Assembly (NCBI RefSeq): GCF_964355755.1
Contig: NC_092673.1
Coordinates: 18,295,001-18,359,000, forward strand
Direction of reading: 5' to 3'
DNA from: Antedon mediterranea
Taxonomy: Eukaryota > Echinodermata > Crinoidea > Comatulida > Antedonidae
Length of the DNA: 64,000 bases
In this document: in pieces, positions 2,677 to 63,960 of the stretch
How the letters are laid out: the number at the start of each line of letters is the position of its first letter
Position numbering within the stretch: position 1 is the first letter of the stretch
Translations under genes and position numbers: made by a program
The notes under the pieces: generated by a model
Database searches by the model: none
The model's input: the letters and a program-made list of their open reading frames with translations, nothing else
Told to the model about the DNA's origin: nothing

Positions 2677-2730
2677 AATCTCGACTTGGAAGCAAACAAC
2701 AACGGATAAAAATAAGATATAACTCAACAG

Positions 2731-3045: not shown

Positions 3046-3055
3046 AACTCAACAG

Positions 3056-5178: not shown

Positions 5179-6111
5179 CTAGTTATTTCGAGGCTTTTCC
5201 ATGTTTGTAAGACGCTTATAGAAATTGATTTGCAGACCGCAAACATCAGATAAAAATGACGTAGGTTAACATACCTATATTTGGCTATATGGGGCGGGCT
5301 GTATGTAAATATGAATGATTAAATGGATGTCATTTTGGTTTAAAAAAGAGTACTTACGATCGAGACGAGTAAGACTTTTAGTTGAAACTGAAACAACAAT
5401 TGTTGAAATGTAAATTGTGACATGTATTATAAGAGTGTTGCCCAGTGTTTGTGTTGTTTGTTACAATAACAAGACTACTGTAGGCCTAGCGGTTGTACTT
5501 GTATGAGCAAACTGGCAACTAAAATGCCAATATGGGCCTTGCTATACATACCACCGTCATTACTACGCTGGGCAGGTTGGATCTGGGTGGGAATTAATGA
5601 TAACAATAAGATCCAGTTTTCCTGTTTTTGGGGAAAATCCCATTACAGTACACTGTTTACCAGACTAGGCGTATAAAACCATTTCCATATCTAGCATTCA
5701 CAGAAACTTACATCATCACATCATCACTTCGCGTGTACACTAAAATCAAATGTACATACGCGTGTGTGTCTCCACATCATCAAAACATAACATAGCACAT
5801 GCGCATCATCTTAGTTGTTCAATCTTTGAAATTTCCAAAAATGCATATTTTCAAGTAAGTAGCCAATCGCATGCAGCTGTAACCAATCAACTGGATAATC
5901 GTATGCACCAAGAATTCTTGGTTTCAAGCTCAAGTAGTATACGTATGAAACCATAAGTGCCAAAATATTTATCTTTTTTGCCATAACACATTTTTTGTCA
6001 GAAAAACTTTTTTCTACATACCTATACTACCACTACCTACCTACCCATCAATTTTTGGGTATTTAACAAAACGCACAATACATTTTTTTTTTTGGGGCCT
6101 TTAACATTGAA
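5179..6111. other. No gene recognised between ankyrin and UPA remnants
   Basis: No Roc, COR or ZU5 coding sequence could be read here in any frame. This is where those exons would lie if locus A had once matched locus C followed by locus B. An internal deletion is the likely explanation. Confidence 0.4.
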
Positions 6112-6342
6112 AATCGTGTTAAAGATAAAAGGAAACAAAGAGCATTGAAAAGTGATGAAAAGGACATAAAGGTCGTTGATTGTATAATGTTTAATTATTT
6201 CAGTGGGTACACTTTACTAGGTCGTCTAAGAAATTTCTTTAGAGCTAGTACGACAAAAAAACTGATGTTAGTAGTTTTTGGAAAGATGCTTGCAAATGAA
6301 TATCAACTTCAAATAAGACTTTGTAAGCCGTCAGATGTAAAG

Positions 6343-7415
6343 GTAATTACTATAATTTGTTATGTTTAAAAATTGTATTGTGATAATCTGATTCAGTTGA
6401 TTAAAATAGATTACTGAGAATCTTGTATTTGGTAGATAACAATACTAATCAACAATACTAAATCTCTTTATGCAACTATTTATTTGTATTAGTATTTGTA
6501 TTATTGTTTGTTTCTTGTGATATGAACTAAAAATTGAATTAAATCAATTAAGTTATTACCTATAAAAGTACCAAAAATGATTGTCAAAAAGACATTTTTA
6601 GTTTAGCATTATTTGACCGATGATTTGCTTGTTGCACAACATATTTTTTTCATGCAAATAATTTAAAGTAGCATATCTTGATAACATTTGGACTGATTTT
6701 CAGATGATATTGATATCTTTGGAATGTTGTTTTAATTATTTAAAATATCATTCTTTATTTTCACACAACTATGGAATGATCTGCTTGTGATGATCTGTAA
6801 ATTCATTAACTTTGACCTTGGATTTCATCTTGTGAGATAAGATAACATTTTGTAAAAATTATCCCCTACATTAAGCTTGATTCCCACTTGGACAGAGGGT
6901 ACACACAATGCAAGTGAGTTGACCAATTACAAGCAACAGTTAGGATGAAGGATCCTTAGTCAAGTTACTCTGGTTGCATTTATGCCATAGTGTCCGAGTG
7001 AGAACCAAGCTTTATATAAAAAAACGTTAGGATATACTATTTTTTTGGCTGCTTTTGAGCTGTTATTTGTACTTTACTAATATAAAATACTTTTTGATAG
7101 TGAAATTCATACCAAATTTAGCTGAATAACTGTCTATATTTTCAGAATATCAATGGTTTTTATTAGTTTTCATGGTCCAGATATATAATTATTACTCCTC
7201 TTCACCCAGTGGTGGTTAGCCCAGATAAATAGACATTTCTTTGTATCAGTTTTTTTATTGTCTTTAAATTGATTGATGATTTAATTGAATTGATTCCTGA
7301 TCATTTACAAAAGAAAGAAACATAGGTTATTATTGCATTGTATAACTTACTCTTCCCTTATAAAATAAAGAAATGTGTACACAAATAGTATATTAAATAT
7401 AAATATGTGTTTCAG
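6343..7415 (+). other. Intron of locus A
   Basis: GT at 6343 and TTTCAG at the right end. AT-rich, no coding sequence or clear repeat seen. Confidence 0.5.
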
Positions 7416-7550
7416 ATGATAGAAGAAGAGCACAGAGAATTGGGTGAGCAGCATTTAATAGCACCTGTACATATATTTGCTTTGTATAAAGACATGAACA
7501 TTGCTGTAGCAGTATCAGAACAGGAATGGAAAATTCAGAAAGCAAAACAA

Positions 7551-8900
7551 GTAAATGTAATACCATTATTATACCATAGAGATATGTTCACTATAATATC
7601 TCTATGATTATACAAATTATAGGTACAGTATCACAATATTTTTATATGTTTTAGTACTGAATGTGATTTACACTTAATTGTAAACACATGAGTTTGGTGT
7701 AATGGGTATATTTGTATTGTATTTTGTATTTTATTCTTGCACATTCAACAGTGTATACACGTTGTTTGTCCAGCGGGGGCCAACTGCAGTACGTATAAAA
7801 AAATACACGTTATACGTTCAGCGACTGTACGTATAACTATCTTTTATTATACTGTACGTCCAGTGGCGGTACGTATATCCTCCCTAAATATATAAACATG
7901 ATATAATAATATTCCTAAGTTCAAATCCCCTTTTTTGGTCATTTTAAAAATATTATTTTATGTTAATTAAAAAAAAAATGTTTGTGACATGACATTTCAA
8001 GTTCGACAAGGTTCTGATGGAAACTGTGACCTGTAGACAATGAAATATATTAGGTTTTTCTTTTTTTATTGTTACCTTAACCTTTGACCTAAGGCTAGGT
8101 CATCAAATCATAGTTTGAAGGGTTAATAATCATCCACCAGTCTAGCAGCAATTCAGTGCAGGCTGAAGCTTCCTCTTTATAAAACACCATTGTGTAGGAC
8201 CAGATTACCGGTATTTTCTCATTTTTAGATTTCTCATTTAGACATATTCCAGGGAAAAATGTATTTTAAAATTTTGTTTAGCAATTATTGCTAATCAAAC
8301 TGATTTTTTAGTTGAGAAACATAGTTTTGTATTGTATTTTTTGCTACACAATTTTAGAAATGTGTAGCAATAAGGTTGTTTTGTATAGCTTTTTGCTATG
8401 CTACACTGGCGAAATTATTCCCTGTATTCCACAGTAAAATTAATTTAGAAAAATTAATTCTGTAATGGTAAAAATTAACTATAAAAAAGCATCCATCATC
8501 CTTATCTTATAACTAATATTGAAACGTAAGATTTTGTGACACCTTACCAAAAGTCGGATTAATTTTTTTATCTATTAAACAACATCATTTGACAAATTTG
8601 TTTTTCTCCAAAAATAAAACTTTCAGACATTACATTTAGAAAACTATAAATTGGGCCAGTTGGTGACCAATATTGAGAGAGTTGATTGAAAGCGTAACCA
8701 GTATAAAAAAATATACTGCAAAATAATGGTTTTTTGACATGACCTTGAGTCAACTACTGTAGCATCTTGAATGTTGACCTTTTTTATGGTTTTTGCCAAC
8801 ACCACTGGTTTAAACAGTATTTTATTATAAACAGTTTATTTTAACAAACCATTGGAGCTGCTGTAACTTTTTATCTGAGTATGGCTTCTTTTTTTTCTAG
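7551..8900 (+). other. Intron of locus A
   Basis: Bounded by GTAAAT at 7551 and TTTTTTCTAG at 8900. Apart from the palindromic GTACGTATA cluster at 7745-7890, no recognisable content. Confidence 0.5.
7745..7890. repeat. Cluster of GTACGTATA / TATACGT motifs
   Basis: Three degenerate units combine a TACGTATA-type palindrome with a GTCCAG(C/T)GGCGG or TTCAGCGACTG spacer. They sit inside an intron of locus A. Similar CGTATACG clusters occur at 14150-14365. Confidence 0.45.
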
Positions 8901-9214
8901 ACTGTCGCTGCTGAATACCTATGGCGTGAAACACCTTTGAAGACATTTCTTTTAGAAAGAGGTAATTCATCAGCAAAAGTCCTAAAGGCAACATTATTAC
9001 TGTCACAAGAGTCAAATGATATTGATCCAGTAGAAGTGTATTGTAAGTATTTAAAATGCAACAAGTCTAAATTTAGAATGATGATTGTAATAAATAAAAT
9101 GCAGTATTCAAATAGTGGTAATCAGACATTAACCATCCATGACTATAACTACTGTACCATTTTTAGAGTAGGGGTGGAAACAATGTAGATATTGGCTTGT
9201 TTTTTTTATCTAGC

Positions 9215-15561: not shown

Positions 15562-16080
15562 ATAAACGCCACCATTCCTTCAATAGAACACCATGTGGAA
15601 CAAACGCCCCGCCACATGCATTTACACAATAATTGTATCACGTCAACACATTTCATTAACTACCATAATCTACAATTTACCAAGCATTTTGACATAATTT
15701 TATCACTTTTTGATATTAATTGTGCTGTATTTTTTTACATCTAGGTGGTATTTATTTGATTATACATGTTACCATATTATACCCCAAATAAAGATGCCTC
15801 CTTTCCCCCTAAAAACCCTTTTGAACAATAAATGGCTGGGGCGTTTAATCGGATACATATGGCAAGTTACTTCTAGCATTCTGAAAAGAACTGTTGAGCT
15901 TAACGTTTCTATCAAAATGTCCTCGGGGACAGCAATAACTAGTACTTGAAATTAAAACAATTTAAAGTATCAGTTATTGCATAACATTACTGTCTACGGA
16001 TAAGTTGTGTAGATATGTTTTTTGTTTGAAGCATTAGTAATAGTATTTCTGTTCATCTTTTAACTACATTTTCTATTACA
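15562..16080. other. No gene recognised
   Basis: AT-rich sequence, no family or repeat structure seen. Confidence 0.4.
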
Positions 16081-16970: not shown

Positions 16971-19783
16971 ATCAAATTATGGAAGTAATTGTGGATTCTA
17001 CTGGTGGAATGCTTCATCTTAAGGAGGCAGACATAAAGTTGGAGATACATTCTGAAGCAATTGAAGGGAAGAAAGTTAAAGTAACGCTAGAACATTGTTT
17101 TGAGGAAACAGACATGCCTGTACTTCATCCTCGTGAAACCATTATATCACCTATTGTTAAATGTGGACCAGAAGGCACCATCTTCAACAAGCCCTGTTTA
17201 CTGTCATTTCCACACGATGCTGTAAATGAAGAGAATTGGGAATTCACTCTACTTGTTAAAGATCGCATTCAAGATGATTGGAAACAAATAGCATTGAAAA
17301 GTGATGAAAAGGATGTTCATTTTACTTTAAGCAAAGGTCTATGTTGTATAACGTTAAATCATTTCACTTGGTATACACTAAGGGGTCTAGGAAAATTATT
17401 TCGTGGTATGAAAAAAATGTCATTATTAGTTTTTGGAAAGATGCTTGGTGTTGAATATCAACTTGAAACAATACTTTGTAAGCCGTCAGATAATCAGGTA
17501 ATTACTATTTGTTAAACTGCATTTGAATAAGGTATATATCTTGTTTTACTGTTTAAAATATTGACATTAACTATTAAATACAGTAGTTGCTTTGTCACAA
17601 TTTATTCTAGAAAGGATAGATTGTATTTTATCAATAATTCTGTAGCTAGAGAAAACATTGAATTAATTAAATTAAATTGTCATTTTATTTATTTTAAATA
17701 TGAAAAGTGCAAGAAAAAAAATGCATTGAGATACACCTAACTCCAGACCTGGGTGTTCACAGGCACCTACAGTTAAAATTATTATCATTTTATGTAATAA
17801 TTAACTACACTGTCAAGATGTAAACATGATTGCATTGTCTAGCCTGCTCTTCCTTCGAATAATTATCAAGAAACAATGTACCAATAAAAATAACATATTC
17901 AATGTGTTGTTTGTACAGTATTAAATATATATTTCAGGCAATAGAACAAGAACACATGCGAAGTGGTGAGCAGATGTTAAGATCACCTGTAGAAATACTC
18001 TCTATGTATAATGACATGAAAATTACTGTTGAAGTATTAGACAAGAAATGGAAAATTCAAGAGACCTCTAAAAAACCACAGGTAAAAACATGTGTTGAAT
18101 AAAAATGTAATAATGTAATACTATATACATTATTATACAAATTATAGATATTATACAGCATCACTATGGTAGGTTGAAATGGTGAAGAATATAATTATAT
18201 TAAATCTAGGACCCTAGAATAGGCAGCTGAGTAACTTAATCAACAAACTACAACTCTGCGCATCAAATGACTTTTTTTGTAGATTGTCCCCGCTAATTAC
18301 CTATGGCATACAAGACCAACAAAGACATTTCTTTTAATAAGAGGTAATTCATTATTAAAGGCAAGAGTGTTACTGTCACAGAAGTCAAATGATATTGATC
18401 CAGTACTTGTGAATTGTAAGTATTTGAAATGCTTTGGTAAAAAAACAAACGCGATGTGTTCATAAAACACAGTAATAGTGTCTTTGGTTGCATATATACA
18501 AATAATCTGTGTTTGTTTTTTATTGAAAAAATTATTTTATTTGTTACAGGTGTTGTTAATACAACATCAAAACAAACCTTGGGTATGTTATTATTTATTC
18601 TATTGTACTAATCTATACGTTGTTATAATGTTCCATTCCACAGAACAGAAAACTGGCATTCTATACTACAAAAATGTACCTTTAGTGCTACCAATAAATA
18701 AGATTTAAAATCTCATTTTGATTATTTATAGGCATTAGTAAGGACATAAATGAAGGAGCATCATTGGGTAACCTATGGCATCCAAGTAAGTTACTATTAT
18801 ACAAATAATGTAGATAATATTATGGTTATTGTTGATTAACAAGTTTTAATACTGTAATGATAATATTTGTGAAAATGATGATAATGCTCCTTTAGAATCA
18901 TAGTAGTTCTCTATAAAATGTAAGACTGTGTTAAATGCAAGGAATATAATTTATTTATTTGAAAATACCTCCCGAAAGATAAGCAATAGTTATATGTTAT
19001 AAGGTACAAGGCATAGACAGTTAAAAAGGTCATCATAATATAATTCTACAAATACTTTGTAAATCATTCAAAATTATGAAGAATTTACATTGTAATTTTA
19101 CAGTAGAGGGGAGAAAAACAACAAAAACAAATGTATATATTATTTTTACTCAAACTCATTTTGATTGGAATCAGTAAAAATAATAATCATTTTCAAAATA
19201 ATGACCAGTAATTTTATTTGCAGATTCTAAAACTTATGACAATTTCCGAATTCTAAAAGCTAATCTTGGTAAATGCTTTGGAGGGGAAAAATGCTGTTGG
19301 ATAAGGTTCCTACTATTTAATAAGTTGGATGTTGGTGAAATTACTAATCAAGATTTTAATGCAAATGACTTGCTCAATGAACTTGAAGACAAAGGTTTAA
19401 TCTCACCAACCAATGTTAATTTGCTGTTAGAGGTCACGAAAACATCTGAAATAGCACAAGCCAAAGATCTTGTATCAAAGTATATAACAGACAACAAGGT
19501 TGAGAATAAACATACTGGTAAAACCAAGTTGTCACCTTACAGAAAGCGACTGTTTAAGGCCCTGAAACAAGTTGACCAAGATGCATTACGTAATGTTACT
19601 TCTTTCTACGAGTTAAGAAGATATAACTTCTCCAATGTATGGAATGCAGTTCTCCATCTGGAGATGAATGGAAGATTAACAGATGATCCAGACAAAATAC
19701 AAACGTTTGCAGATTGTGTTGGAGGAATGGCAGGAAACATGCTGAACACGTTTAATGTTCTTACTGAACCATTCCCAAGGTAA
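16971..19783 (+). CDS. ZU5 - UPA - death effector domain protein (locus B, 5' end not found)
   Basis: Six exons join in frame: 16971-17497, 17938-18081, 18283-18415, 18550-18582, 18732-18785 and 19224-19783 (phases 0,0,1,1,1), about 480 codons. Exon 1 holds a ZU5 domain (VDSTGGMLHL ... ISPIVKCGPEGTIFNKPCLL), then the UPA domain starts (CCITLNHFTWYTLRG, LLVFGKMLGVEYQL) and continues through exons 2 and 3 (EQEHMRSGEQMLRSPVEIL, WKIQE, FLLIRGN). After a short linker the last exon encodes a death effector domain: LKANLGKCF, IRFLLFNKLDVGEI, NDLLNELEDKGLISPTNVNL. Its second half (SPYRKRLFKALKQVD) is helical-looking and unassigned. ZU5-UPA units form intramolecular locks in UNC5 and PIDD; DEDs recruit FADD/caspase-8-type partners, so a role in death or innate immune signalling is inferred. 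Exon 1 starts mid-codon, so upstream exons must exist. The stop TAA lies inside a donor-like AAG|GTAATT, so the true 3' end could differ. Confidence 0.85.
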
Positions 19784-28062: not shown

Positions 28063-28963
28063 TGTCATCTACTATAGTGTAATTAATTGTATAAACAGCC
28101 CCTTTAATTTAATGATATATTCAGCTTTCATCATCTATGCCATTTTCATCTATTCTATTTTCATCATCTATTCATCATTGATAGAAATTTCTTTGATGCA
28201 ATTTTCATCATAACCAATAAATTGCGTAAGCGATGTTTCATAGATTCTGGTTTCACCAAAATATGTTCTGCTTGATGTTAATGAATAGTTTTCAGTTATG
28301 ACATCGAAGAGAGCTTAGTTGTACAATCTTCATGGTAAATTCAAGCTAATTTACTACTGATGTTTATACTATGTATGCTGGTTTTGCATAAAATTGCATA
28401 TAAGCAAGCTGCATCACTTTAATCGTCCCTAGATAATTATACTAATTTATCTAAATAAATGATATTAAAGCTTGTTAATATTTATTTATTATACCATAGT
28501 AAAAATTATTTTCACAGCATAGGTTTATAGTATTACTGTATGTTGACCAGGTTTATATAAGATGTTCCATCCACAAATTTTAGAGAATGGCAGGCACTAA
28601 ATCAACCGAAACAAAAGTAACATTGATAAAAAAAAAAGATTCTTGACAATCACAACAGGTTCAATGCAGATCACTTAACCTTAAAGAAGGCAAGACTGAT
28701 TGAGGAAGTAATGTAATTCACAGAATAAGGAAAGAGGGTGTTGGCCCTTGGTATAACAATAAGCATCTTATAATAGGCAGCTTCTATGATCGGACTGTGC
28801 AATTTTGAATGTAATGTTATTTTATCATGTATGTTTCTTTAGATTCAGTGTGTAAATGTGAGTTGTAATAGTATAGTTATTTATTTCATTTTATAATACT
28901 GTATTTTTACTTGTTGTAATTGTACAATGATCGTTTAGTATCAAACAGTATTTATACGATTAA

Positions 28964-32929: not shown

Positions 32930-32936
32930 TACAGTA

Positions 32937-45826: not shown

Positions 45827-48800
45827 CTAAGCAGTATAATATTTAGATATATAATGATTCTTTAACTTTTTTCGGAAAGTAAATAATGATATTGACGTTT
45901 TGATATTTGGTGGGATATGATTCCACAAATTAGGACCTGATATAGTTATAAAAAATTTAGTTTTTGTTAGTCTAGCAAAAGGAATGTTTAAATGAGAAGT
46001 TCTTAAATTGTAATTGTGAAATTTGGTACGTTTACAGAGCATATCAATCATAGAAATAGGAAGTTGGTTTTTAAAATAATTAAACATAAAACTGGCAACT
46101 TGAACATTGTGGATATCCGTTAATTTTAATATACCAAGACGTTTAAAAAGGGGTTCAGATGAGGTTCTATATGGTGAAAAAGTAATAATTCTAGCTGCAC
46201 GTTTTTGTAATTTAGTTAATCTAGCAATATTAGAAGAGTAATCTGCAGCCCAAATAATGTTACAATACTGGAAATAAGGAAGTACAAGTGTGTTATAAAG
46301 AGAAATTAAAATATTTAGAGGGAAGAAGTGCTTAAGTCTGTTAATAATACTAATAGATCTTGATATTTTTTTCGAAACGTAATTTTGATGACTGGTCCAT
46401 TTGAGGTTTTCATGAATATATACACCTAAAAAAAGTGTTTCAGTTTTGCGTTCAATTTGAATTCCGCCAAGAAGTATATTTAGGTCATCAACTTTTAGTT
46501 TACGTTGAGAATTGTGAAAAATTAAATAATTTGTTTTAAGAGTATTAATAAGTAATTTGTTTGAAATAAACCAGTCACAAAATTTTGTTAATTCATCATT
46601 GAATGTAGTAAATAATAAATCAATATTGGAATTAGAGTAAAATAAGGTGGTGTCGTCGGCGAAGGATATTACTTGCAATTTGTTACTGACATTAGCCAGA
46701 TCATTAACATAAATAAGGAAGAGCAATGGCCCAAGCACAGATCCCTGTGGCACTCCGCAAGTAATATCCATCGTCGACGATGTACAAGATCCTAATGCAA
46801 CATATTGTTTTCTATCTTTCAAATAACTATTAAACCAATTCAATGAAATACCTCTAATTCCATAGCACTCAAGTTTTTTAATTAAATTATCGTGATTAAT
46901 AACATCGAAGGCCTTTGAAAGATCAATAAATAAACTTAATAAATTTTCTTTTGATTCAAATGAATTTGTAATATTATTAATAAGATCTAAAACGGCATGG
47001 GATGTAGAGTGATTTTTTCGAAAACCATATTGGCGTTTATTAAGTATATCAAATTTTGTGAGATAATCAGAAAGTTTAGAATACATGAGTTTTTCAATAA
47101 TTTTGGAAAACACTGAAAGTAGTGATATTGGCCGGTAATTAGATAATTGACTTCGTTCACCTTTCTTGAAAATGGGCACAACTTTAGCTAGTTTTAAGTG
47201 TGTTGGAAAAGTGCCAGATAAAAAAGATGAATTTATACAATGGGTAAGTTGGTGGATGATTAAGGGAGATATAGATTTTAAGACACGAGCAGTAATACCG
47301 TCAGATCCAGACCCTTTATTAGAATTTAGATTGTATATAGTTAGGTTAACATCATCAATTGAAACTGGGCTAATATAAAATGAGTTGGCAAACGCAGAAT
47401 GAAGATAAGATAATGGATCAGTTATATTAGTTGGCATACTATTAATAAGATTAGGACCAATTGTAGAAAAATAGTTGTTAAACGATTCACATATCTCTTT
47501 TTGAGTTTTGTAAATATTATCACCGTCTTTAATTAGATTCGGGTGCTTGTTATTATTATTACCTTTATTTAAAACAGAATTTATTACAAGCCATGTGTTC
47601 TTCAGATTACCTTTATATCTATCAAACTGGGAAGTATAATAATTCTTTTTAGCAGTGCGACAAAGATTAGTGAAAATATTATTATATTTTGTATAGTTTA
47701 ATTTGTCATTATTACTACGTGTGTGCATATATTTGTTATAAAGTTTATGTTTCCGAGAACTACATTTTAAGAGAGCAGATGACATCCATGGTTGTTTAAA
47801 CGTTTTATTTGATTTTATACTACTTTTAACCAAGTGTCTGGAGTGGATATTTGTAAATTTTTCAATAAATATATCAAAACTCAATCTTGGGTCACAATCA
47901 AATATCATAGACCAGTCTTCACCTTCTAAATCAATCGATAAGGCATTTAGGTCGTTTATACGAAATGAATAGTTGGCGCTATTATCATCAAGGTTTTGAT
48001 CATTAATTTCTTGATCAATGAACTGAAATATAGGAAGGTGGTCGGAGATATCATTAAGTAAAACACCAGCAACTATTTTATAGTTAGATTGTTTGGAATA
48101 AAAATGATCAATCAAGGTGGCCGAAGTTGAGGTAATCCTAGTTGGTTTTGAAATAGTTGGAAAAAAAGAATGGGAAATTAAGGTATTTAGGTAGGTGTTT
48201 GTTAATTTATGGTTATGGAATTTTAATAAATCAATATTGAAGTCTCCCATGAGATGACAATTTTTGTTTTCATTGTTAATTTGGGTTAATACATTATCGA
48301 CGGATTTAGTAAAAGAATCTAGCCCTCCACAGGGGGCTCTGTAAATAATGCCTATAATATCATTTTTTGTCTTTGAATTTTCAATCTCAACAAAAAGTGA
48401 TTCGGAAAGGTCGTCTGGTAATTTTAAGTCATTTCGAATTGTAATGCTAATATCATTACGTATAAAAAATGCAACTCCTCCGCCAATTTGATTATTGCTT
48501 CTATTGCTTGCAAAGAAGGAGTAGTTAATGAAAGGAATAGGGGAGTTTTCATTATACCATGTTTCACTGATACCGATTATGGAAAATTTGTTATTAATTG
48601 AATTCAAAAGGCATTCGAGATCATTAACTTTATGCGTAATACTTCTAATATTAAGATGCAGGAGAGATAGTTTAGTATTAAAGGATGTATTAAACTTAGA
48701 ATTAAATTGTGAATAATCATAAAAGCTGCATTCATCTAGGGTAACTGACTGTGAATTGAGATTATTAATTAGTTGATCAAAAGATTCATCATATTTGTCA

Positions 48801-48916
48801 TTTTCATTGTAATTAACTGGATTAAAGGTTATGTTAGAAATATCATTGTTGTTAGTAAGTTCAGAGTTCACATTAAAGTCATAAAAAGGAAGTAAGTGAA
48901 GATAATTAACATTCAT
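45827..48916 (-). CDS. LINE ORF2: APE endonuclease - reverse transcriptase (1029 aa)
   Basis: The uninterrupted frame starts [14 protein letters not shown]. The endonuclease spans about residues 80-300: [64 protein letters not shown] and SDHLPIF, including the catalytic E, D, N and H residues expected of APE-type enzymes. The RT spans about 530-830: [84 protein letters not shown] and the catalytic SFADDTTLF. The C-terminus ([29 protein letters not shown]) is typical of CR1/Jockey-type LINEs. No RNase H segment is evident. It would nick genomic DNA and prime reverse transcription there. Confidence 0.95.
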   Translation of the reverse strand: [1029 protein letters not shown]

Positions 48917-49111
48917 TAAAAATAGCTGCGTATACTGTAGCGTTATCTAAAAAAGAAATACAGCAATAAGCATGCATGAGACTGTATACATTAATACATA
49001 ATTAATGAGAAGCAAAATAAACAATTCTTGAAATAAAAATATATTATAGGTAATATTTCGGTTGACGGTAAGTAGAGTCAAAGTAAAGTTAAATTATTGC
49101 GACGACTAGAA

Positions 49112-52750: not shown

Positions 52751-53995
52751 CTTTGCACAGGAATGATTTTCAAACAGTTAAACACATTTGTAGAACACAG
52801 CCAGATCTTGTGACATCTATCAATGAGGTATTAACAATATATTTTCATAATGATTAATATTAACAAAAAGAAATTCTTTTCATTGAAATTTAAAATTGTT
52901 TACTACATTATTTAGCTGTAATTTTTGCTGCTGTTTATATAGAAAGAAAACCAATTTCACATAATGTCTGTTGTTATTTATAAACTTTATTATTTTGATT
53001 CCTTTCCAGGATGGGGACACTCCACTACATGAATATCTAAGAACAGTAAATCCTACCTTAGATATAGTGACTTGTCTTGTACAGAATGACACATCTGCAG
53101 CAACATTGCAAAATAAGGTAATCTACAGGTATTTGCTAGTGTAGTAGGCAACCATTCTCTGCAGTAAACCATTCTATTTATCAATAATGACAAATAGGAT
53201 TTTTTACTACATTATTTAGCAGTACTTATTGCTGTTGTTTATATTGACAGAAAACCAATTTCACATAATGTCTGTTATCAGTATTTATAAACTTCATGAT
53301 TATGATACCTTTCCAGGATGTATATTGGAAATTGACTATACTATAGTTATGTGCTTAAACCATTTAAAACAAACTAAATTGATCAAAAAGCCAAATTCCT
53401 GGCCCCCAGCCAAAAGTAATCTTTGTTCCTCCTGTTGATTTATTTTTGGATTTGCCCCTGGGTACCCTGATTTGAGTGCCATTGTGAATTTCAACTTGTC
53501 AAAAATAGATTTAGACTTGTCAATTATAGATGAGGAAATCTCTAGATTGATTATTATTATTATTACATTTATCTTGTTACACTCTATAACACAGGCTAAC
53601 ATTCTATTTACTGATGAAACATATGTGCGTTTGTTCATATAGCCTTTCACCTTGACCGTTTGACCATTCAACACATTTTCAAAATGTGTATACCAAGCAA
53701 AAAATTGACCACCCTAAACCAATTTCTGAAGTCAAATTCTCTGGACATCAAAGTAGCTACTACAGTATCATTAATTATGACCATTTTAGATTTGTTTTCT
53801 TTTTAGTAGAACAACCTAATGGCACACATGATGTGTAATTAACCAATCAAATCAGATACACTAGTCAGGTGTGTTATAAAACTGTATATGTAAATGTATG
53901 TGTTTTATAGGAAGGGAATACATCTGTGAATGTTTTAGAAAATAACACGCAGATGGTTTACCAAGAAAAAAACAAGATTTTAAAGTTCTTTGACA
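52751..53995 (+). other. Ankyrin-repeat exons of locus C
   Basis: Exon 52751-52827 reads LHRNDFQTVKHICRTQPDLV. Exon 53010-53117 is one repeat length (36 codons): DGDTPLHEYLRTVNPTLDIV, with the TPLH box, then TCLVQNDTSAATLQNK. Exon 53911-53995 starts with the partial repeat EGNTSVNVLENNTQM. The D-G-T-P-L-H signature supports ankyrin repeats, usually protein-binding. The first exon begins mid-codon, so more repeats lie upstream, perhaps outside recognisable range. Confidence 0.75.
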
Positions 53996-56900
53996 GTAAG
54001 TGAAGTTTTCTAGTAAAGTTTTAATTAATAAACTAAAGGTCTGCCAGTTTTTAATTTTGTTCTAAAATGGGAGTGATTAAGTTAAGACAGTGGAACCGTA
54101 ATCCAGTCATAATATCAACAAAGGTTCAAGGTTCACCTGCTCCATGTTTCTGGTAGAACGAGTCTTCTTGGATAAGGACTATAAACTGTAATTTCAGTTT
54201 ACATAAATGCTTGTGTGCACTTTGAAGAACCTAGTACATACATTTATAAGGATGAGTAGGGGTTACCTCAGTTTACTTGTTCACACACAGCCACTGTCTT
54301 AGAATTGGCAACAATGACTTGACATGACCCTAAGGGGAAAAGAACTATTATGAAAGATTTATATTTATTTTTACTTTATAATTTTATATTAGAATTGTTA
54401 ATCCCTGCCGAAATATATGCCAAAGGTGCAGATGCAATTAAGATATATAAAGATGAGCTACAAAATGGTGAAATTGCAGTTGTAAATTCAAGGTGTATGT
54501 TTCTTGGAAAAGAAGGTGCAGGCAAGACTAGTTGTGTAAAGGCTATGCTTGGAGAAAGGTAACAAGTAAAATTGATATGTGTATATGTAGTAACTCTAAA
54601 GTTTTTTTTAACTAAAAAAACCCCAAAAAACCTGTGTTTATACCAATCCCCAAACTTTGGCTATTGTTTACTTGCTTTGTCCTATTGTAAACTAAAGCCT
54701 AGTTTGGCTTAGTTCACATACTACCAGTCTATCTTGTGATGACCAGTCATCTCAGACTATGCTACTTTATATATTAGACACTGAAATATAACAAAAATAT
54801 TAGGTTAATTTTGATTTCAGGTTTTTAAAATTTAATTTTTGTAATCAAAGATGTATAAATATATGGAGTTTCAATCTTGAGATTTTGCTTTTTAAAATTA
54901 TTGTCAAACTTATATATTAACTATATACAACTTATAAATATTGTTCAACTTTACTAATACATTGTTATAATAGATTCAATTCCAGAGAACCATCTACTTA
55001 TGGTATCGTTACAACTACAGTGTTTCAGGCAACTAATAAGAGCAAAAGGGTGAAAGATGTAGAGGGTAAGAGTCAAAGAAATGCTATTGGAAAATATTGA
55101 TTAACTTCTGTATATAACACATTAATCATTTGATAAAGTAAACATTTTACATTCAAATTGTTGCTATAAATTTAAACCTTAGTTTTGGAGTTCCATTATT
55201 AATCTTACTGTACATTGTATAACAGCAGTTGAATGACATTTTGGACAAATGCTATTAAGTACTGTAGTTAGAAATATGTAGACTCATAAATCTGCTAGTA
55301 GGCCCTGAACCTTAAAATAACAAATTTATGTCTTCCTTTAAATAACAAATTTATGTCTTCCTTTAAATAAGATTCCATAACACAATTATAGTCATAATTG
55401 GGTTTACTGAACATTAACCTCTTATTTTCAATACCTTCAACATTTATACCAAATTCGTAGGTATATTGAGTATATTGATATACCCACTAGTGAAAATGCT
55501 GTACGTTGTCTTGTCTTGCCACGACTGGACTATTGTAATTCTTTACTTCTTGGCACATCTAGCAAAGAAATCAAACCCTCTTGAAAAAACACACCTTAAG
55601 AGTTTATTGCGCCACTAGTTTGGAACCAGCTTCCACTTAACCGTCAGTGTAAGCAATTCAAGTCACTTCTAAAATCTCACCTTTTTTAATAATTCTAGTT
55701 GGTCTTTTAGCGCTGTGAGACATCAGTAAATAGTGCTTTGTAAAAGTTTATTATTATTCTTAATAATAAATATCACACTATCACTTAATATTGTTGATCT
55801 ATAAATAATACATTTATTTTTCTTTCTTTGTAAAGGTGCTGAACTATCCAAGCAAATTCGTGCACATGCGTTAGAAAAGAAATTAGATGAAGGTAGGCAC
55901 ATACTAAAACATTAAAATGTTATTATTTTTTATATCTGCAGATTTAGGTATATCAAGCAATATTACCATAGTGCTTTTTTTTATTGTTTTTAAAAGGCAA
56001 TGATAACAGCTTGGCTAAAGTTTGGAATATTGTAAGGAAAGGTTTAACAATGGCAACAGGAAAGGTAGATGTGAGTGACATAACTAGTATTTGGGACTTT
56101 GCTGGTCAACTAGACTACTATATAACACACAGGGTATGTTTGTCTTAATTATCCTCGAGTCTTTTCTTGATAGTGAAATCAACATGTGATTCTTTTACTT
56201 CTATCTGGATTTAGATACAAGTAAATATATCTGTATCATCATAATAAAAATGACAATAGAAGATGTTGGGCAATAATAACCAACATAATACAGACAATAG
56301 ACGATGTTGGGCAATAATAACCAACATAATAATGACAATAGAAGATGTTGGGCAATAATAACCAACATAATAATGACAATAGAAGATGTTGGGCAATAAT
56401 AACCAACATAATACTGACAATAGAAGATGTTGGGCAATAATAACCAACATAATACAGACAATAGAAGATGTTGGGCAATAATAACCAACATAATACAGAC
56501 AATAGAAGATGTAGGGCAATAATAACCAACATAATACTGACAATAGAAGATGTTGGGCAATAATAACCAACATAATACTGATAATAGAAGATGTAAGGCA
56601 ATAATAACCAACATAATAATGACAATAGAAGATGTTGGGCAATAATAACCAACATAATACTGACAATAGAAGATGTAAGGCAATAATAACCAACATAATA
56701 CTGACAATAGAAGATGTTGGGCAATAATAACCAACATAATACTGATAATAGAAGATGTAAGGCAATAATAACCAACATAATAATGACAATAGAAGATGTT
56801 GGGCAATAATAACCAACATAATACAGACAATAGAAGATGTTGGGCAATAATAACCAACATAATACAGACAATAGAAGATGTTGGGCAATAATAACCAACA

Positions 56901-59900
56901 TAATACTGACAATAGAAGATGTTGGGCAATAATAACCAACATAATACAGACAATAGAAGATGTTGGGCAATAATAACCAACATAATACTGACAATAGAAG
57001 ATGTAAGGCAATAATAACCAACATAATACAGACAATAGAAGATGTTGGGCAATAATAACCAACATAATACTGACAATAGAAGATGTTGGGCAATAATAAC
57101 CAACATAATACTGACAATAGAAGATGTAGGGCAATAATAACCAACATAATACTGACAATAGAAGATGTAGGGCAATAATAACCAACATAATAATGACAAT
57201 AGAAGATGTTGGGCAATAATAACCAACATAATACTGACAATAGAAGATGTTGGGCAATAATAACCAACATAATACAGACAATAGAAGATGTTGGGCAATA
57301 ATAACCAACATAATACTGACAATAGAAGATGTTGGGCAATAATAACCAACATAATACTGACAATAGAAGATGTTGGGCAATAATAACCAACATAATAATG
57401 ACAATAGAAGATGTTGGGCAATAATAACCAACATAATACAGACAATAGAAGATGTTGGGCAATAATAACCAACATAATACAGACAATAGAAGATGTTGGG
57501 CAATAATAACCAACATAATACTGATAATAGAAGATGTAAGGCAATAATAACCAACATAATAATGACAATAGAAGATGTAGGGCAATAATAACCAACATAA
57601 TACAGACAATAGAAGATGTTGGGCAATAATAACCAACATAATAATGACAATAGAAGATGTTGGGCAATAATAACCAACATAATACAGACAATAGAAGATG
57701 TTGGGCAATAATAACCAACATAATACAGACAATAGAAGATGTTGGGCAATAATAACCAACATAATACAGACAATAGAAGATGTTGGGCAATAATAACCAA
57801 CATAATAATGACAATAGAAGATGTTGGGCAATAATAACCAACATAATAATGACAATAGAAGATGTTGGGCAATAATAACCAACATAATACTGACAATAGA
57901 AGATGTTGGGCAATAATAACCAACATAATACTGACAATAGAAGATGTTGGGCAATAATAACCAACATAATAATGACAATAGAAGATGTTGGGCAATAATA
58001 ACCAACATAATACTGACAATAGAAGATGTTGGGCAATAGTAGCCAACATAATACTGACAATAGAAGATGTTGGGCAATAGTAGCCAACATAATACAGACA
58101 ATAGAAGATGTAGGGCAATAATAACCAACATAATACTGACAATAGAAGATGTTGGGCAATAATAACCAACATAATACAGACAATAGAAGATGTTGGGCAA
58201 TAATAACCAACATAATACAGACAATAGAAGATGTTGGGCAATAATAACCAACATAATACTGACAATAGAAGATGTTGGGCAATAATAACCAACATAATAC
58301 AGACAATAGAAGATGTTGGCAGGCCCGTAGCCAGGGGGGGTTTTTATGGTTCGGGCGAACCCCCCTTTACAGCGAACCCCCCTTAACCGACTGCGAACCC
58401 CCATCCCCGACATGCCCAATACCTCACCCTCATCTCCGAAAATCGTCCAAATATGTGCCCCACAGTACAAAAAGTTGTTCGTAAATTAAAAAATTCGTAA
58501 ACTCGTTCGGAATAACTCATACAGTACCTTCTTCCCTGTATGAGCGTACTTCGAGCGATACGTGTCTGTAAATTTCTAAGAGTTGCAAATGAATTGCCGA
58601 TTTTAACCTGAAAAATAAATGTTTGGTCCCTGCATGTAACATGATATTGACCCGTCTCACAGCGAGCTGGGGCACGAACGATTCGTACAAAGGACACCGC
58701 CAGACAACTGCGTACCAATTGTTTAGATCACTGGCAGTCAGGCAGCATGCATAAAGTATATAGCCTTCCGACATACATCAGTATTTATGTGTGGCTATGA
58801 AGTATAATGTATCATAGAGAATTATAGTGAATATTAATATTTTACACTATAATATCTATGGTATCATGTACTGTAGTTCACATTATGGCATCCGATTATT
58901 TTTTTCTAGACCACCAGCCAATACGTACTCAAATGTATCAATATCAGCTATTTACGTTGGCATATTTAATTTCCTCAACAAATTGCTGTAAATAAATATT
59001 ATAGATAGAGCTATAATAAGAATTGCATTTTCCTTCACCCAGTGTGCTTTTTTTCGGGGCTTCTCCTAGACGTACGTTCGCATTGAACTTGAACGCAAAA
59101 CAAAATATCGAGTAATAATGATCTAACAATCGGCGGTTCCGCACAGAGCACGTGCATCTAACATACGGCAACAAACGTTATCGTTTAAATAGTCCACGAG
59201 TCCAAGTACGATCGTTTTGCTCATTGGTAGCATGCTGCATGAGAGTGTCTTTTCCGGCCATCTAGGGGTGTCATTTAACAAAATTTGCTTTGCCGATACG
59301 TACTCAAATGTATCAATATCAGCTATTTACATTGGCATATTTAATTTCCTCAACAAATTGCTGTAAATAAATATTATAGATAGAGCTATAATAAGAATTG
59401 CATTTGCCTTCACCCAGTGTGCTTTTTTCGGGGCTTCTCCTAGACGTACGTTCGCATTGAACTTGAACGCAAAACAAAATATCGAGTAAAATGATCAAAC
59501 AATTGGCGGTTCCGCACAGAGCACGCGCATCTAATATACGGCAACAAATGTTATCGTTTAAATTTAACAAAATTTGCTTCGCCTCAGGCCCCACCCCAGG
59601 GGAAGAGGGTAGGTATGGGGGTGGGGTGACCCAAATACTTAGTGTGCGAAAATCCCCTTGACAGATCCTGGCTACGGCCCTGGTTGGGCAATAATAACCA
59701 ACATAATAATGACAATAGAAGATGTTGGGCAATAATAACCAACATAATAATGACAATAGAAGATGTTGGGCAATAATAACCAACATAATAATGACAATAG
59801 AAGATGTTGGTCAATAATAACCAACATAATACTGACAATAGAAGATGTTGGGCAATAATAACCAACATAATACAGACAATAGAAGATGTTGGGCAATAAT

Positions 59901-62900
59901 AACCAACATAATACAGACAATAGAAGATGTTGGGCAATAATAACCAACATAATAGTGAACATAAATATTTAGGAGTATGGATAGATGAAAAACTGTCATG
60001 GAACGCCAACACTGCCAAAGTCTATGCGAAGGCAAACCAAAGATTGTACTTCTTAAGGAAATTAAGAAACTTTAATATTGGCAGAGATGCGCTGTCTCTA
60101 TTCCATCAGGCTATGATACAGTCCATATTAACATTTTGCTGTATTGTATGGCTAAATAGTTTATCTAAGTATAACTCAAATAAATTACAGAGAATAATAA
60201 AAATGGCTAAGAAGGTAATAGGTGCAAACGTCCCATCTATCCATGATATATGCGATAAGGTTATGGAGAAAAAACTAAAATGTATAATTAACGACCAGTC
60301 TCATCCTCTTTTTAACTTTATAAATTTCAGTAGATCCGGAAGGATGATTCCTTCAATTAAGAAGACTGAGCGTCATAATTCCGTGTGCAATCAGGCAATA
60401 CAACAAGCAATTTAAAAGATAACTTGAGACGTTTTATATTTTATTCTTTATATAGTATTTTAATATTTATACTGTTCATAATGTTTTATACATAAGCATA
60501 TTTTCTTATATATTATCTTATCCATTGTATAGTATTGTATGTTTTTAACTGTTGTTATTTTTATTGTAATTTGAACCTTGGAAGGCAAATTTCATTTACT
60601 GTGTATTTGACAATAAATTTTAACTTGAACTTGAACTTGATAATACTGACAATAGAAGATGTTGGGCAATAATAACCAACATAATACTGACAATAGAAGA
60701 TGTTGGGCAATAATAACCAACATAATACTGACAATAGAAGATGTTGGGCAATAATAACCAACATAATACTGACAATAGAAGATATTGGGCAATAATAACC
60801 AACATAATACTGACAATAAATGAAACATGTATATTCTCTGTTTTGTTTGTGCCATAGCAAGTTTTTTACAGTTTTGTATTTTAGTTATTTTCTATATCCA
60901 ACAGTATTAATATTAACTTTTTTGGTAGCCAAAAATTGAAAAAACTATATTTCTTTATTATTTATAAATTATAAATGTTGACTTTATTTAGAGGATAATA
61001 TGTAAAGCCTCTATGCACTTCACATTAAAAGTAACAAGTTTTCAATTACAAAAACAAAGAAATAAATGAAAAATAGGTATTCATTTTGTTTCATTTTAAG
61101 TTATTTTTTGGACGCACCTTTATCAATGCAGTGTGCCACTGTTGTAAAAGTAAGGTTTAATTATAATATTCTATCTATTAACCTTTACATTGTATTTATA
61201 TCTTTCAGTTCTTTCTGACAAACAAAGTATCATACTATGTTACGTTTAATGTGATGGATAACTTGAACGAACTAGCTAATCCACGAGATTCATCAATTGT
61301 AAGTTCACCAAGTATTTAAGATTATTTTGTAAAATTTATCAACAGAGAATTGTTTATTTTTTAATTACAATTACATTTTGATTTTAGGATTCCCTAGGAA
61401 TGACTAATTTGGACATGAATTTGTTCTGGATAAGGACTATTTATGAACATACTGTGTTAAAACACAATTCAGGAAACCCCATTTTCATTGATGGCAAGAG
61501 TATAGCATCGCCTCCTATCTGTTTGGTTGCTACCCATATGGATAAATTGTCAGGGACAGAATCAGAAAAACAGATGAAGGTAATAGCTGTAGTATACATT
61601 TATAACTTAAACATCATTTGACTCTACACATTTATGCACATTGCTTATTTCTGAATGGTAAATCAGAACGGATAAGCATCACATGAAATAAAAGAAGAAA
61701 CCTTTTTTTGTATTGTTAATATAAGAATACAATTTTACTAATTAAAGGCTGAGAAGATGTTCATGCAGATGTTTGATGCAATGAAAGGAATGCCGTATGC
61801 CAAGCATGTAGATCGTGAAATGTACATGGTGGATAACACTGTAAAGTCACATGAAGGTATTGAAAAACTTAAGCGAAATGTTGGTAGATACATGAAAGAA
61901 ATGGTGATGAAAGTTCCTGTAAAGTGGGTTGATTTGCAAGAAAGGTTGCAAATAATTGGAAAAACAAGATTGTACATTACCTTGACAGAGGTAAGGGTTT
62001 GAATTACTTTTGTTTTCAATGTATAGTTATAGAATTCTATCATTCAATATGTTGTGTGTGTACTCAGAAGATTTACTTCAGAGGTAAATAATTGTAATCA
62101 AACATTAATCAGTAATTATAGTAATTATTTAGTCAGTGATGCGGCCGTGAACATCAGTCTGTATTGCACCTTCCAATAGTACTGTCCTGTTTAGTTATTT
62201 ATTTGTCAAATGAATTTAGTGTAATAATTATTATTAAAATGTCAATTCTGCTTTAGGTTTCTAAGATTGCAACTCAATGTGGAATTCCTCAAGAAGTACT
62301 CACCACTGCCATAAGTTATCTGAATGACACTGGAATTATCATGTACACTGGCACTAATGAGAAATTAAGAAACATTGTGATAACAAATCTTCACTGGATG
62401 ATTGAAATTTTGACAAAAGTCATCACAGTATTTACACCAATGTTTGAAATGGTTAGTAAATGCATATTATATATAACTAGACTTGTATATCAGTAGGTCT
62501 ATTACATTTAGAATCTTTTTTTTTTTGTACACAGAAGAAAGCAGAAGATCGGAAGCAATTACAGAAGCTATGGGGAAAGCTTAGCAATGAAGGAGTTCTT
62601 GAAGAGATGTTACTACGTTATTTGTGGCGGAATGAAGATGAAGATCTTTTTGATGTTTTTGTAGAACTGATGAAAGTATTTTGTTTGCTCTTTGAGAAGA
62701 CAAAGGTAGGCACATAGTATACACTTTTAATGATTTAAAAAAATGTAACTGTAAAGCTCTTACCTAAAAATATAAAACTAACCACTTGTATTAATTTATG
62801 TGTAATTGTGATATCATATTATAATAACAGGAAATTAAAGAAGCTAACCGGATATTTTTAGTTTCCTGTCGAATGAAAGTTGACAAAAAAGACATTTTGA

Positions 62901-63960
62901 AAGTCACAGCAGATGACACACAAACAGTATCAATTTACCTGACTCCGACAGACTTCCTATCTGATGCTGTGTACCACACATTGGTTGTTGCATTTCTTGA
63001 ATTGATGACAGAAAAGGGTAGTGATGATTCAGAAGTGTTCCGGAATCGTAGTGACTTTAAATTTAGTGGTCACACTTTAAGCTTAGGTTCTGTGAAAATT
63101 TACCATGAAAAAGAAAAGCCATGTGCTTTAAAGGTTTGAAATTAATTACTACTTTTTCTATTAATTATATTCTAATTTTAATATTTAATAAAAATGTGTA
63201 TATAAAGAGAAAACATAAAACCAATTAACGTTGAATATCGTATATATATGCATTCTTCTGTATTACACACTTTTTTCTTTAATAGTACAACAAACCTTGC
63301 TTTACTAATTTTGTAACGATGTATTGTTCCCTCAAAACATGACAAATTAATTATATATTATTATATTCTACTTTCAATATTTAGTAAAAATTTGTATTTA
63401 AAGAGAAAACATAAAACCAATTAACGTTGAATATAGTATATATGCATTCTGCTTTATGCCAATGTATTACGCATTTTTTTCTTTAATAGTACAACAAATC
63501 TTGCTTTACTAATTTTGTTTATTTTAACGATGTATTGTTCCCCCCAAAACATGACAAATTAATTAAAAATTTGACGTTAAATAGCCCATATTGCAGTTTT
63601 AATAAAGTTATTCACTTCCGTAAAAAAAACAACAAACAACAGTAATGATTTCACTTTTTACGTGAATAACTATTATGTGACATTAAATAACATTTTTTAA
63701 AAATAACAATTTTTGAAATTATTTTTTCAGGGGAACAATGCAGTATATCTTTTATATTTATGTTCCATTTCAATGTTTATGTGTTATATGTGTTTATCCA
63801 TCTGTATTGATTATCAAAAGTCATAGATAAATGTCGTAATATACTGTGTGAATGTTTTTCTTGACAGCTAGAAATATCACGCTGGAATAAAATTGATGAT
63901 GAAAGAAGTGATGGCAAAGAAACAGAGGTATCTGAACCAGAACCGAGTGTCTGCATGGAG
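52751..63960 (+). CDS. Ankyrin - Roc GTPase - COR protein of the ROCO family (locus C, both ends open)
   Basis: Fourteen exons join in frame: 52751-52827, 53010-53117, 53911-53995, 54393-54558, 54974-55065, 55836-55892, 55997-56133, 61209-61298, 61388-61579, 61748-61990, 62257-62451, 62535-62705, 62831-63133 and 63868-63960, about 625 codons. Order: ankyrin repeats, Roc, COR, then an acidic stretch (DDERSDGKETEVSEPEPS) before the right edge. Roc motifs are complete: GKEGAGKTS (P-loop), a switch I STYGIVTTT, WDFAGQLDYY (DxxG), ATHMDKL (in place of TKxD). ROCO proteins bind GTP through Roc and dimerise through COR. Neighbouring locus B encodes ZU5-UPA-DED, and degenerate locus A combines remnants of both types, so this gene may itself continue into ZU5-UPA-DED beyond the window. 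No start codon is identified. The 5.1-kb intron after 56133 is filled with satellite and transposons. Confidence 0.9.
53200..53335 (+). pseudogene. Duplicated intron end with remnant of an ankyrin exon
   Basis: Bases 53200-53318 repeat 52897-53009 (ACTACATTATTTAGC, GAAAACCAATTTCACATAATG, CCTTTCCAG). After the acceptor, GATGTATATTGGAAATTGAC replaces GATGGGGACACTCCACTAC. So an ankyrin exon with its upstream intron was duplicated and the exon then lost. Confidence 0.65.
55490..55760 (+). pseudogene. 3' fragment of a CR1/L2-like LINE in an intron
   Basis: Plus-strand reading VRCLVLPRLDYCNSLLLGTS, a gap, then LVWNQLPLNRQCKQFKSLLK and HLF, followed by an AT-rich tail AAGTTTATTATTATT. These are the last residues of LINE ORF2 with an internal deletion. 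It lies between Roc exons 55065 and 55836. Confidence 0.7.
56242..58319. repeat. 41-bp minisatellite in the Roc intron, about 50 copies
   Basis: Unit GACAATAGAAGATGTTGGGC followed by AATAATAACCAACATAATACT. Main variation: AATACT, AATACA or AATAAT; GTTGGG, GTAGGG or GTAAGG. The period is not divisible by three, but the unit lacks stops on the minus strand, so all three minus frames stay open for about 700 codons (LVIIAQHLLLS, CWLLLPNIFYC, YYVGYYCPTSSIV). The array continues at 59683-59954 and 60641-60820, after two insertions. Confidence 0.95.
58320..59682. mobile_element. hAT-like non-autonomous DNA transposon, copy 2
   Basis: Same ends as the copy at 1334-2390 and perfect 5-bp duplication GTTGG of the minisatellite unit. 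It is longer because about 280 bp are duplicated inside: the stretch beginning CCAATACGTACTCAAATGTA at 58917 recurs at 59294 (CCGATACGTACTC...). It is about 95 percent like copy 1 by eye. Confidence 0.8.
59683..59954. repeat. 41-bp minisatellite, middle block
   Basis: About 6.6 units, between the hAT-like element and a LINE fragment, in the same orientation and phase as the main array. Confidence 0.9.
59955..60640 (+). mobile_element. 5'-truncated LINE fragment inserted in the minisatellite
   Basis: Flanked by TAATA (59950-59954 and 60641-60645). The open frame to 60415 encodes the last part of a LINE ORF2: EHKYLGVWIDEKLSWNANT, LRKLRNFNIGRDAL, LTFCCIVWLNSL, KVIGANVPSIHDICDKV and SHPLFNF. After the stop come about 220 bp of 3' UTR ending in an (ACTTGA)n tail. 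No RT catalytic core. It differs in sequence from the full LINE at 45337. Confidence 0.85.
60641..60820. repeat. 41-bp minisatellite, right block
   Basis: About 4.3 units, mostly AATACT variants, ending the array. The remaining intron to 61208 is plain AT-rich DNA. Confidence 0.9.
61748..63133 (+). other. COR domain exons of locus C
   Basis: Exons 61748-61990, 62257-62451, 62535-62705 and 62831-63133, all phase 0. Signatures: VPVKWVDLQERLQII (COR start), VLTTAISYLNDTGIIMYTG, LRNIVITNLHWMIEILTKVI, KLSNEGVLEEMLLRYLW, LFDVFVELMKVFCLLFEK and RIFLVSCRMKVD. This matches COR-A followed by COR-B as in Roco proteins and DAPK1. A kinase domain does not follow within the window. Confidence 0.85.
63153..63570. 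repeat. Tandem duplication of about 200 bp in the last intron of locus C
   Basis: AAAGAGAAAACATAAAACCA, TTAACGTTGAATAT, TTTTTTCTTTAATAGTACAA and CGATGTATTGTTCCC recur in order at 63207-63340 and 63400-63560. No exon is included. Confidence 0.75.

Follow-up and report, generated by a model that had tools for sequence, protein, structure and literature searches.

Ankyrin-Roc-COR Genes Preceding Death Effector Domains in the Genome of the Crinoid Antedon mediterranea: a Candidate Family of GTPase-Gated Death-Fold Sensors

The best-known ROCO proteins are kinases (LRRK2, DAPK1) or leucine-rich repeat (LRR) proteins, and Roc-COR is the ROCO module of nucleotide-controlled dimerisation. Here, we report an ankyrin-Roc-COR gene, locus C, at the right end of a 64,000-nucleotide stretch of the Antedon mediterranea genome (NC_092673.1; C4:18295001-18359000, plus strand; "the window" below, with "extended" coordinates running past window position 64000). 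We consider it reasonably probable that locus C belongs, as a single ankyrin-Roc-COR module, to a large ROCO family with local duplications, in which most modules precede a death effector domain (DED) and a few precede (Death or DED)-ZU5-UPA, and whose products would act as GTPase-gated death-fold sensors.

Locus C exons were located via translation and by protein identity (50-91%) to a compact paralogue on contig C11, with Roc at 54395-54559 (G1), 54972-55097, 55999-56142 (G3), 61209-61301, and 61388-61579 (G4), and COR at 61745-63136; exon by exon they are as follows.

53010..53117, plus strand: ankyrin-repeat exon (DGDTPLHEYL...LQNK); 50% identity, E 1e-7, to the ankyrin exon of the C11 paralogue
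54393..54558, plus strand: Roc exon 1 with G1/P-loop GKEGAGKTS and a phase-1 acceptor at 54393; 89% identity to C11, acceptor phase
54986..55065, plus strand: Roc exon 2 (switch I region); 61% identity to C11, splice chain
55997..56133, plus strand: Roc exon 3 with G3 DFAGQ; 63% identity to C11, Pfam Roc on the joined protein
56244..58319, no strand: 41-bp tandem repeat, 50.6 copies, in the intron between Roc exons 3 and 3b; repeat scan
61209..61298, plus strand: Roc exon 3b; 90% identity to C11, splice chain
61388..61579, plus strand: Roc exon 4 with G4 THMDK; 80% identity to C11, splice chain
61748..61990, plus strand: end of Roc and start of COR-A; 87% identity to C11, Pfam COR-A 62.8 bits on the joined protein
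62257..62451, plus strand: COR-A exon; 79% identity to C11, COR-A 32 bits in the genome search
62535..62705, plus strand: COR exon; 91% identity to C11, splice chain
62831..63133, plus strand: COR-B exon; 89% identity to C11, Pfam COR-B of the C11 copy 25.1 versus a cut-off of 27
63868..63960, plus strand: exon 11, post-COR linker; 69% identity to C11, splice chain
C4:18359041-18359248, plus strand: next exon after 63960, outside the window, ending in a phase-1 GTAAGT donor

Translated, locus C reads ankyrin, Roc, and COR in that order. Under a splice-site model, the chain that includes the ankyrin exon gave 681 amino acids (aa) with zero stops, and that from Roc exon 1 to the exon past the window edge was likewise open (11 exons, 625 aa); a few of the splice sites used in these chains score below 0. 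The joined protein passed Pfam cut-offs for COR-A (62.8 bits; cut-off, 35.3) and Roc (29.2 bits; cut-off, 27). As expected for short exons, the unjoined signal was weak for COR-A (27 bits, sub-threshold; 32 bits in the genome search), and for Roc no match fell in the window among the best 150 of 256 candidates of the genome Roc family search. The motifs that we take to be G1, G3, and G4 of the Roc G domain are all present, and COR, with COR-A over its cut-off, directly follows Roc, the arrangement of a ROCO protein. In a PDB sequence search with the joined protein, the COR part matched 3dpu ("Rab family protein," a bacterial Roco; E 6e-8), and LRRK2 Roc was also matched. The ratio of nonsynonymous to synonymous substitution (dN/dS) was 0.17-0.20 in comparisons with three paralogues (412-482 codons) and 0.33 with a fourth (165 codons); the frame is therefore not due to chance, and on these ratios locus C is under purifying selection.

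The sequence-only reading of this stretch, which had put Roc motifs and COR after ankyrin repeats in one in-frame exon chain, was thus borne out by the open chain and by the Pfam search of the joined exons, with the ankyrin-to-Roc splice in doubt. Pfam made no ankyrin call in the locus C protein, where the repeat is assigned by identity to the C11 copy (Ank 22.4 versus 21.1 there). Since the homologous Roc acceptor (54393) is phase 1, the ankyrin-to-Roc junction in the 681-aa and C11 chains is probably not the true splice, with an exon missing between. Beyond the window edge, a unit of ~76 bp (the end of the post-COR exon with its donor) is present in ~4 copies at ~64.2-64.55 kb (extended), and once in the four paralogous stretches compared.

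The genome search covered 354.4 Mb (11 large contigs holding 353.5 Mb) and mapped at least 92 Roc P-loop exons, 81 COR-B, at least 84 COR-A, 63 ZU5, and at least 299 distinct DED places (candidates scored: Roc family, best 150 of 256; COR-A, 150 of 188; DED, 150 of 464 and 150 of 441; Roc exon, 150 of 151; the DED map holds 149/150 rows of the first DED search, with C11:20700550 left out). COR-A and ZU5 exons are found in tens of copies, many of them on C4 at ~16-20 Mb. For 55/81 COR-B places, the next mapped same-strand element within 15 kb downstream was a DED (54) or ZU5 (1); the count is 54/81 if an intervening COR-B also disqualifies, with a median distance of 5.3 kb. The same count was 5/81 upstream and 0/81 on the opposite strand, and 500 local shifts (50-500 kb) gave a mean of 8.5 and a maximum of 20, versus 55 observed. 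COR-B and DED starts lie as little as 0.94 kb apart. A DED stands within 15 kb downstream of 17/63 ZU5 places, and Roc/COR within 15 kb upstream of 7/63 (five on C1, one on C11, and one on C9), 4 of which also have a DED within 15 kb downstream. By these order counts, Roc-COR-DED predominates over Roc-COR-ZU5-UPA, the minority form, and a Roc-COR/DED fusion elsewhere in the genome is a well-supported prediction. The DED exon set is itself very large, and several of its members, with a methionine ahead of the domain and a phase-1 donor, resemble first coding exons of other genes, so that an N-terminal role for DED, too, is probable.

The C11 paralogue (20719000 down to 20699001) carries, on one strand, the locus C exons followed by a linker, DED, ZU5, UPA exons, and a second DED, with everything from ankyrin to the last DED within 12 kb. 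At C11:20.70-20.72 Mb, Ank, Roc, COR, DED, ZU5, UPA, and DED were joined as one open chain of 18 exons and 1348 aa. A first chain had two stop codons at splices; split stops were then forbidden, so their absence is imposed there and in later chains, and a guessed exon ("upa2") had no acceptor and was dropped. Pfam placed ZU5, COR-A, Roc, and Ank of this chain above cut-off and DED and COR-B below. The linker and first DED exon are phase 1-1, with no methionine ahead of the DED domain. The chain supports a predicted single Ank-Roc-COR-ZU5-UPA-DED protein at C11. Two C1 loci examined have Roc, COR, Death-like, ZU5, and UPA exons in order, the Death-like exon sitting between the post-COR exon and ZU5 (16 bits; cut-off, 22.6; second copy 54% identical); the Roc parts of C1b and C1c were located, outside the joined chains.

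Splice phases were compared in 12 fetched Roc-COR-DED loci, two of which (C8 and C4b) had no detectable post-COR exon and were excluded from the phase count. In 10/10 of the rest, a single donor of the post-COR exon scores positively and is in phase 1, and DED is preceded by a phase-1 acceptor (in C11d a phase-0 site scores higher). The top acceptor of Roc exon 1 is phase 1 in 8/9 loci, mostly with weak scores, the exception being C1b (top acceptor phase 0; weaker phase-1 site at the homologous place). ZU5 is phase 1 in/0 out in 23/23 fetched DED-cluster copies and mixed in 17 controls (one without a match), a set that is not clean because two members (L033 and L034, C4) resemble the family. 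UPA exits at phase 1, and Death-like, linker, and hydrophobic exons are 1-1; among 20 DED exons picked to be widely spread, some lying behind a COR-B, top donors were phase 1 in 16 and phase 2 in 4. Counter to a strict phase-1 rule, ankyrin exons exit at phase 0 and several DED exons end in a stop. Because the copies are related, these counts are not independent trials. The outer borders from Roc onward are mostly phase 1, so the modules are exchangeable in frame, and phase-1 exchange would be the simplest account of the varied architectures, as a reading of their history.

An alternative is that Roc-COR and DED (or ZU5-UPA-DED) are separate neighbour genes, kept together by block tandem duplication, with the gaps intergenic. 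The ZU5-UPA-DED gene of the window (described below) would fit it, as its ZU5 has no Roc/COR within 15 kb upstream and 7/63 ZU5 places have one, and so would the several DED exons elsewhere that carry a methionine ahead of the domain and read like first coding exons. We nonetheless regard it as quite improbable, given the single positive post-COR donor, always in phase 1 and followed by a phase-1 DED acceptor (10/10 loci), the 1-1 phase of the C11 linker and first DED exon with no methionine ahead of the domain, and COR-B and DED starts down to 0.94 kb apart, with 0/81 on the opposite strand.

For locus C itself, no ZU5 or DED was found in the 20 kb past the window edge, nor any ahead of the second ROCO that follows there; no ZU5 lies between C4:18312260 and 18433486 (genome ZU5 search, all 69 candidates scored), and no death domain was found within 20 kb after the locus C COR. 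The DED result is no proof of absence, because the best 150 of 464 and 150 of 441 DED candidates were scored. The possibility raised in the sequence-only reading, that one protein joins Roc-COR to ZU5-UPA-DED, is supported at the level of the family (C11 chain; 55/81 COR-B order) and not supported at locus C.

The second, diverged ROCO starts ~3 kb beyond locus C, with its first Roc exon near 67.1 kb, G3 at 73.6 kb, a G4 that reads THKGK, COR, a hydrophobic exon, and DED at 84.4 kb (extended coordinates). Its P-loop exon is truncated; its COR, post-COR, hydrophobic, and DED exons are phase-compatible, and the DED acceptor used scores -3.9. The hydrophobic exon (83910-84101 extended; membrane-like by eye; phase 1-1) sits between COR and DED, and this ROCO is possibly a membrane-anchored version. 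Two sister loci (C4:16097301-16107300 and C4:17057901-17067900, with ROCOs at C4:16097498 and 17058120) likewise have a ROCO followed by a diverged ROCO; there, the second P-loop is intact, and a phase-1 post-COR donor joins a phase-1 acceptor of the next Roc with no stop.

This arrangement bears on two further explanations. Locus C could be decaying, its tail lost and the second ROCO (broken P-loop exon, THKGK) a relic, as the truncated P-loop exon and the failure to find DED or ZU5 before the next ROCO would suggest. We think this unlikely: the 11 exons are without a stop, dN/dS is 0.17-0.33, and both sister loci keep the identical order, which is therefore inherited and not fresh decay. Alternatively, a single protein could span locus C and the ROCO behind it, carrying both Roc-COR modules, then a hydrophobic (membrane-like) segment, and at its end a tandem DED. 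The stop-free phase-1 joins in both sister loci and the phase-compatible COR, post-COR, hydrophobic, and DED exons of the second ROCO speak for it, and a double Roc-COR protein is possible at the three ROCO-ROCO loci; the truncated second P-loop exon in this stretch, the DED acceptor score of -3.9, and its status as a prediction from genomic sequence leave it with a distinctly low probability in our estimate. Locus C may lack a tail, make up the front half of a double-ROCO gene, or be spliced to its neighbour's DED. Because its GTPase motifs and downstream donor are kept and its own DED was not found, it would be either a tail-less regulator or decoy, or a gene that reaches the neighbour DED by splicing.

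The domain identities were examined across the family that we favour as the home of locus C. A profile built from 14 DED exons aligned with caspase-8 across its two DEDs (residues 2-169; E 4e-7) and weakly with FLIP and FADD, so that two consecutive DEDs are present in the family profile; Pfam DED matched 14/14 profile members at E up to 1, the window member falling below cut-off. HF[S/T/C] is found in 22/23 fetched DED-cluster ZU5s (the other reads SFT), as well as in the window, C11, C1a, and C1b copies.

Several observations weigh against a family of single-protein death-fold sensors. HF[S/T/C] is also found in 12/17 control ZU5 loci (four controls have no readable residue, and one reads SFT); the motif therefore permits cleavage without arguing for it and was rejected as proof of autocleavage. 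Top acceptors of the 20 spread DED exons are phase 1 in 10, phase 2 in 6, and phase 0 in 4, perhaps because some of these DED exons are first coding exons, and the window DED exon exits at a phase other than 1. In C1b the join failed between Roc exons 3 and 4, leaving a chain from COR onward only, and the C1c chain runs from the post-COR exon onward only, with some sites non-homologous. A direct UPA-to-DED splice in C1c puts a stop in the split codon, as does the better acceptor of the second C11 DED exon (dedB), so an exon may be missing there. DED is below the Pfam cut-off in both joined proteins that carry it, and an AlphaFold model of the window DED exon alone, made without an alignment, was uninformative (pLDDT, 39.6) and went unused. 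The single-protein readings are predictions from genomic sequence.

Lineage-expanded, GTPase-gated death-fold sensors are the best reading of the family, and the mechanism that follows is the one we infer for them. Tandem DED seeds filaments in caspase-8/FADD biology, and ZU5-UPA acts as a lock, with release of UPA-death-fold fragments, in UNC5, PIDD, NLRP1, and CARD8. The module pool comprises, in varying order, Roc-COR, tandem caspase-8-like DED, Death-like, a hydrophobic exon, and a ZU5-UPA block. The ankyrin repeats would sense a ligand; GTP/GDP exchange in Roc would control COR-mediated dimerisation, as suggested by work on ROCO proteins (for their architecture, PMC6337361); and the exposed tandem DED would nucleate caspase-8-like filaments. 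Where present, ZU5-UPA would restrain the death fold, with release possibly via self-cleavage at HF/[S/T/C], as in PIDD, NLRP1, and CARD8. We infer that the switch, lock, and filament steps are coupled in one protein. A more tentative extension, which we rate as doubtful though possible, is a combinatorial repertoire in which modules with phase-1 borders were shuffled into many death-fold sensors, the Roc-COR-Death-ZU5-UPA-DED branch being a GTPase analogue of NLRP1, with Roc-COR in the position of NACHT and a UPA-DED fragment, freed once the N-terminal part is lost, seeding a caspase-8-type filament.

The window also holds the ZU5-UPA-DED gene, which had been read from the letters 33 kb upstream of locus C on the same strand and was confirmed by the exons at 16971-19779 (ZU5, 67.7 bits; UPA by paralogy), together with a partial copy.

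6067..9044, plus strand: partial ZU5-end/UPA copy, likely a gene fragment; UPA-like exons 7419-7550 and 8901-9044, ZU5-end-like frame 6067-6366
16971..17497, plus strand: ZU5 exon, HFTWY at the autoproteolysis position, phase 1 in/0 out; Pfam ZU5 67.7 bits, UNC5B 3g5b E 2e-9
17938..18081, plus strand: UPA exon 1, phase 0-0; 43% identity to the C11 UPA exon, chain
18283..18415, plus strand: UPA exon 2, phase 0 in/1 out; 62% identity to C11, chain
19224..19779, plus strand: tandem DED exon, phase 1 in; 42% identity to C11 dedB, splice sites, Pfam DED 20.5 bits (under cut-off)

Joined, this gene encodes 454 aa (ZU5, 67.7 bits; DED, 20.5 bits), with ZU5 followed by UPA and then a death fold (UPA exons assigned by paralogy, DED under the Pfam cut-off); Pfam UPA was reported for C1b alone, sub-threshold (22.8 versus 27). 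The best donor of the DED exon is phase 2, immediately ahead of an in-frame TAA, and this exon may be the last of the gene. One gene spanning both loci was rejected, because ZU5-UPA-DED precedes the ROCO, the reverse of the order required, and is 33 kb away. No Roc/COR match was obtained within 15 kb upstream of the window ZU5, and no tail was found at locus C; the two genes are therefore distinct members of a shared module pool and do not make up a single gene. For the partial copy at 6067..9044 no ZU5 core was detected, Pfam ZU5 being absent in window 1-10000.

Retrotransposon-like frames lie on the minus strand at 45830-48946 (1039 aa, endonuclease plus reverse transcriptase), 26566-28068 (reverse transcriptase part), and 15046-15579 (endonuclease part). 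An 18-bp tandem repeat (113 copies, window 32936-34963) is consistent with the long open frames that overlap on the two strands of this region. Elsewhere, C11:4574278-4645866 (plus strand) and C11:17546311-17602884 (minus strand) hold arrays of long frames, many of ~950-990 aa and some shorter, whose Pfam Roc match is split into two parts separated by ~1.2 kb (positions 1-50 and then ~37-117; among the best 150 of 256 Roc candidates); they may have a G domain split by a long insert or belong to another GTPase family.

If the proposed family is real, it would couple Roc-COR to caspase-8-type tandem DEDs, sometimes with a ZU5-UPA inflammasome lock, as a GTP-gated counterpart of NLRs, and would provide a natural system for how Roc-COR dimerisation controls death-fold output; the shared phase-1 borders would give a simple, testable account of how a receptor repertoire diversifies. 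No description of Roc-COR joined to DED or ZU5-UPA was found in the open-access papers searched (preprints excluded), which does not prove that none has been published. A close ROCO comparison is DAPK1, which has ankyrin repeats. In the available text of PMC6337361, DAPK1 is a ROCO group 3 protein with a kinase before Roc-COR and a death domain after it; it shares with this family the order of Roc-COR then a death-fold domain, and a role in cell-death signalling. Here, in contrast, the tail consists of a tandem DED or of a Death-like domain with ZU5-UPA, and dozens of copies are present in the genome; within 52.0-64.0 kb, no kinase was found in any of the three forward frames, a scan that did not extend to every frame of 21.0-52.0 kb. 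Sea anemone NG1/NG3 and the Aplysia TLR/MyD88 ROCO hybrids are similarly of immune type, with Roc-COR added to TIR or Death, whereas DED or ZU5-UPA is not described on them in the portions available of PMC5094078 and PMC9334734. Lophotrochozoan RLRs resemble the family in having DED, Death, CARD, or IG domains grafted by exon-level exchange between receptor genes, but are helicase receptors with an N-terminal graft (accessible text of PMC8998645); the main text of that paper mentions neither "intron phase" nor "phase 1."

PIDD1, NLRP1, and CARD8 (FIIND) share ZU5-UPA before a death fold and an HF/S-like motif at the cleavage place, which in PIDD is the self-cleavage site (available part of PMC3210808). 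FIIND sequences of death-effector-domain proteins appear in a figure legend of the same source, so ZU5-UPA with DED is not by itself new, and TRADD-N proteins with UPA-ZU5 exist according to the available text of PMC8195603. The family differs from the FIIND proteins in that the switch module is Roc-COR in some loci, the DED is tandem, and the cleavage motif is non-specific and marks a predicted site only. UNC5 (ZU5-UPA-DD) is matched by the window ZU5 exon (UNC5B 3g5b, E 2e-9), whereas UNC5B reads QLG at the aligned place, not HF[S/T/C], and UNC5 is without Roc-COR. Caspase-8 is aligned over its two DEDs with the DED exon family (E 4e-7), whose DEDs differ from those of caspase-8 and FLIP in being attached to ROCO or ZU5-UPA.

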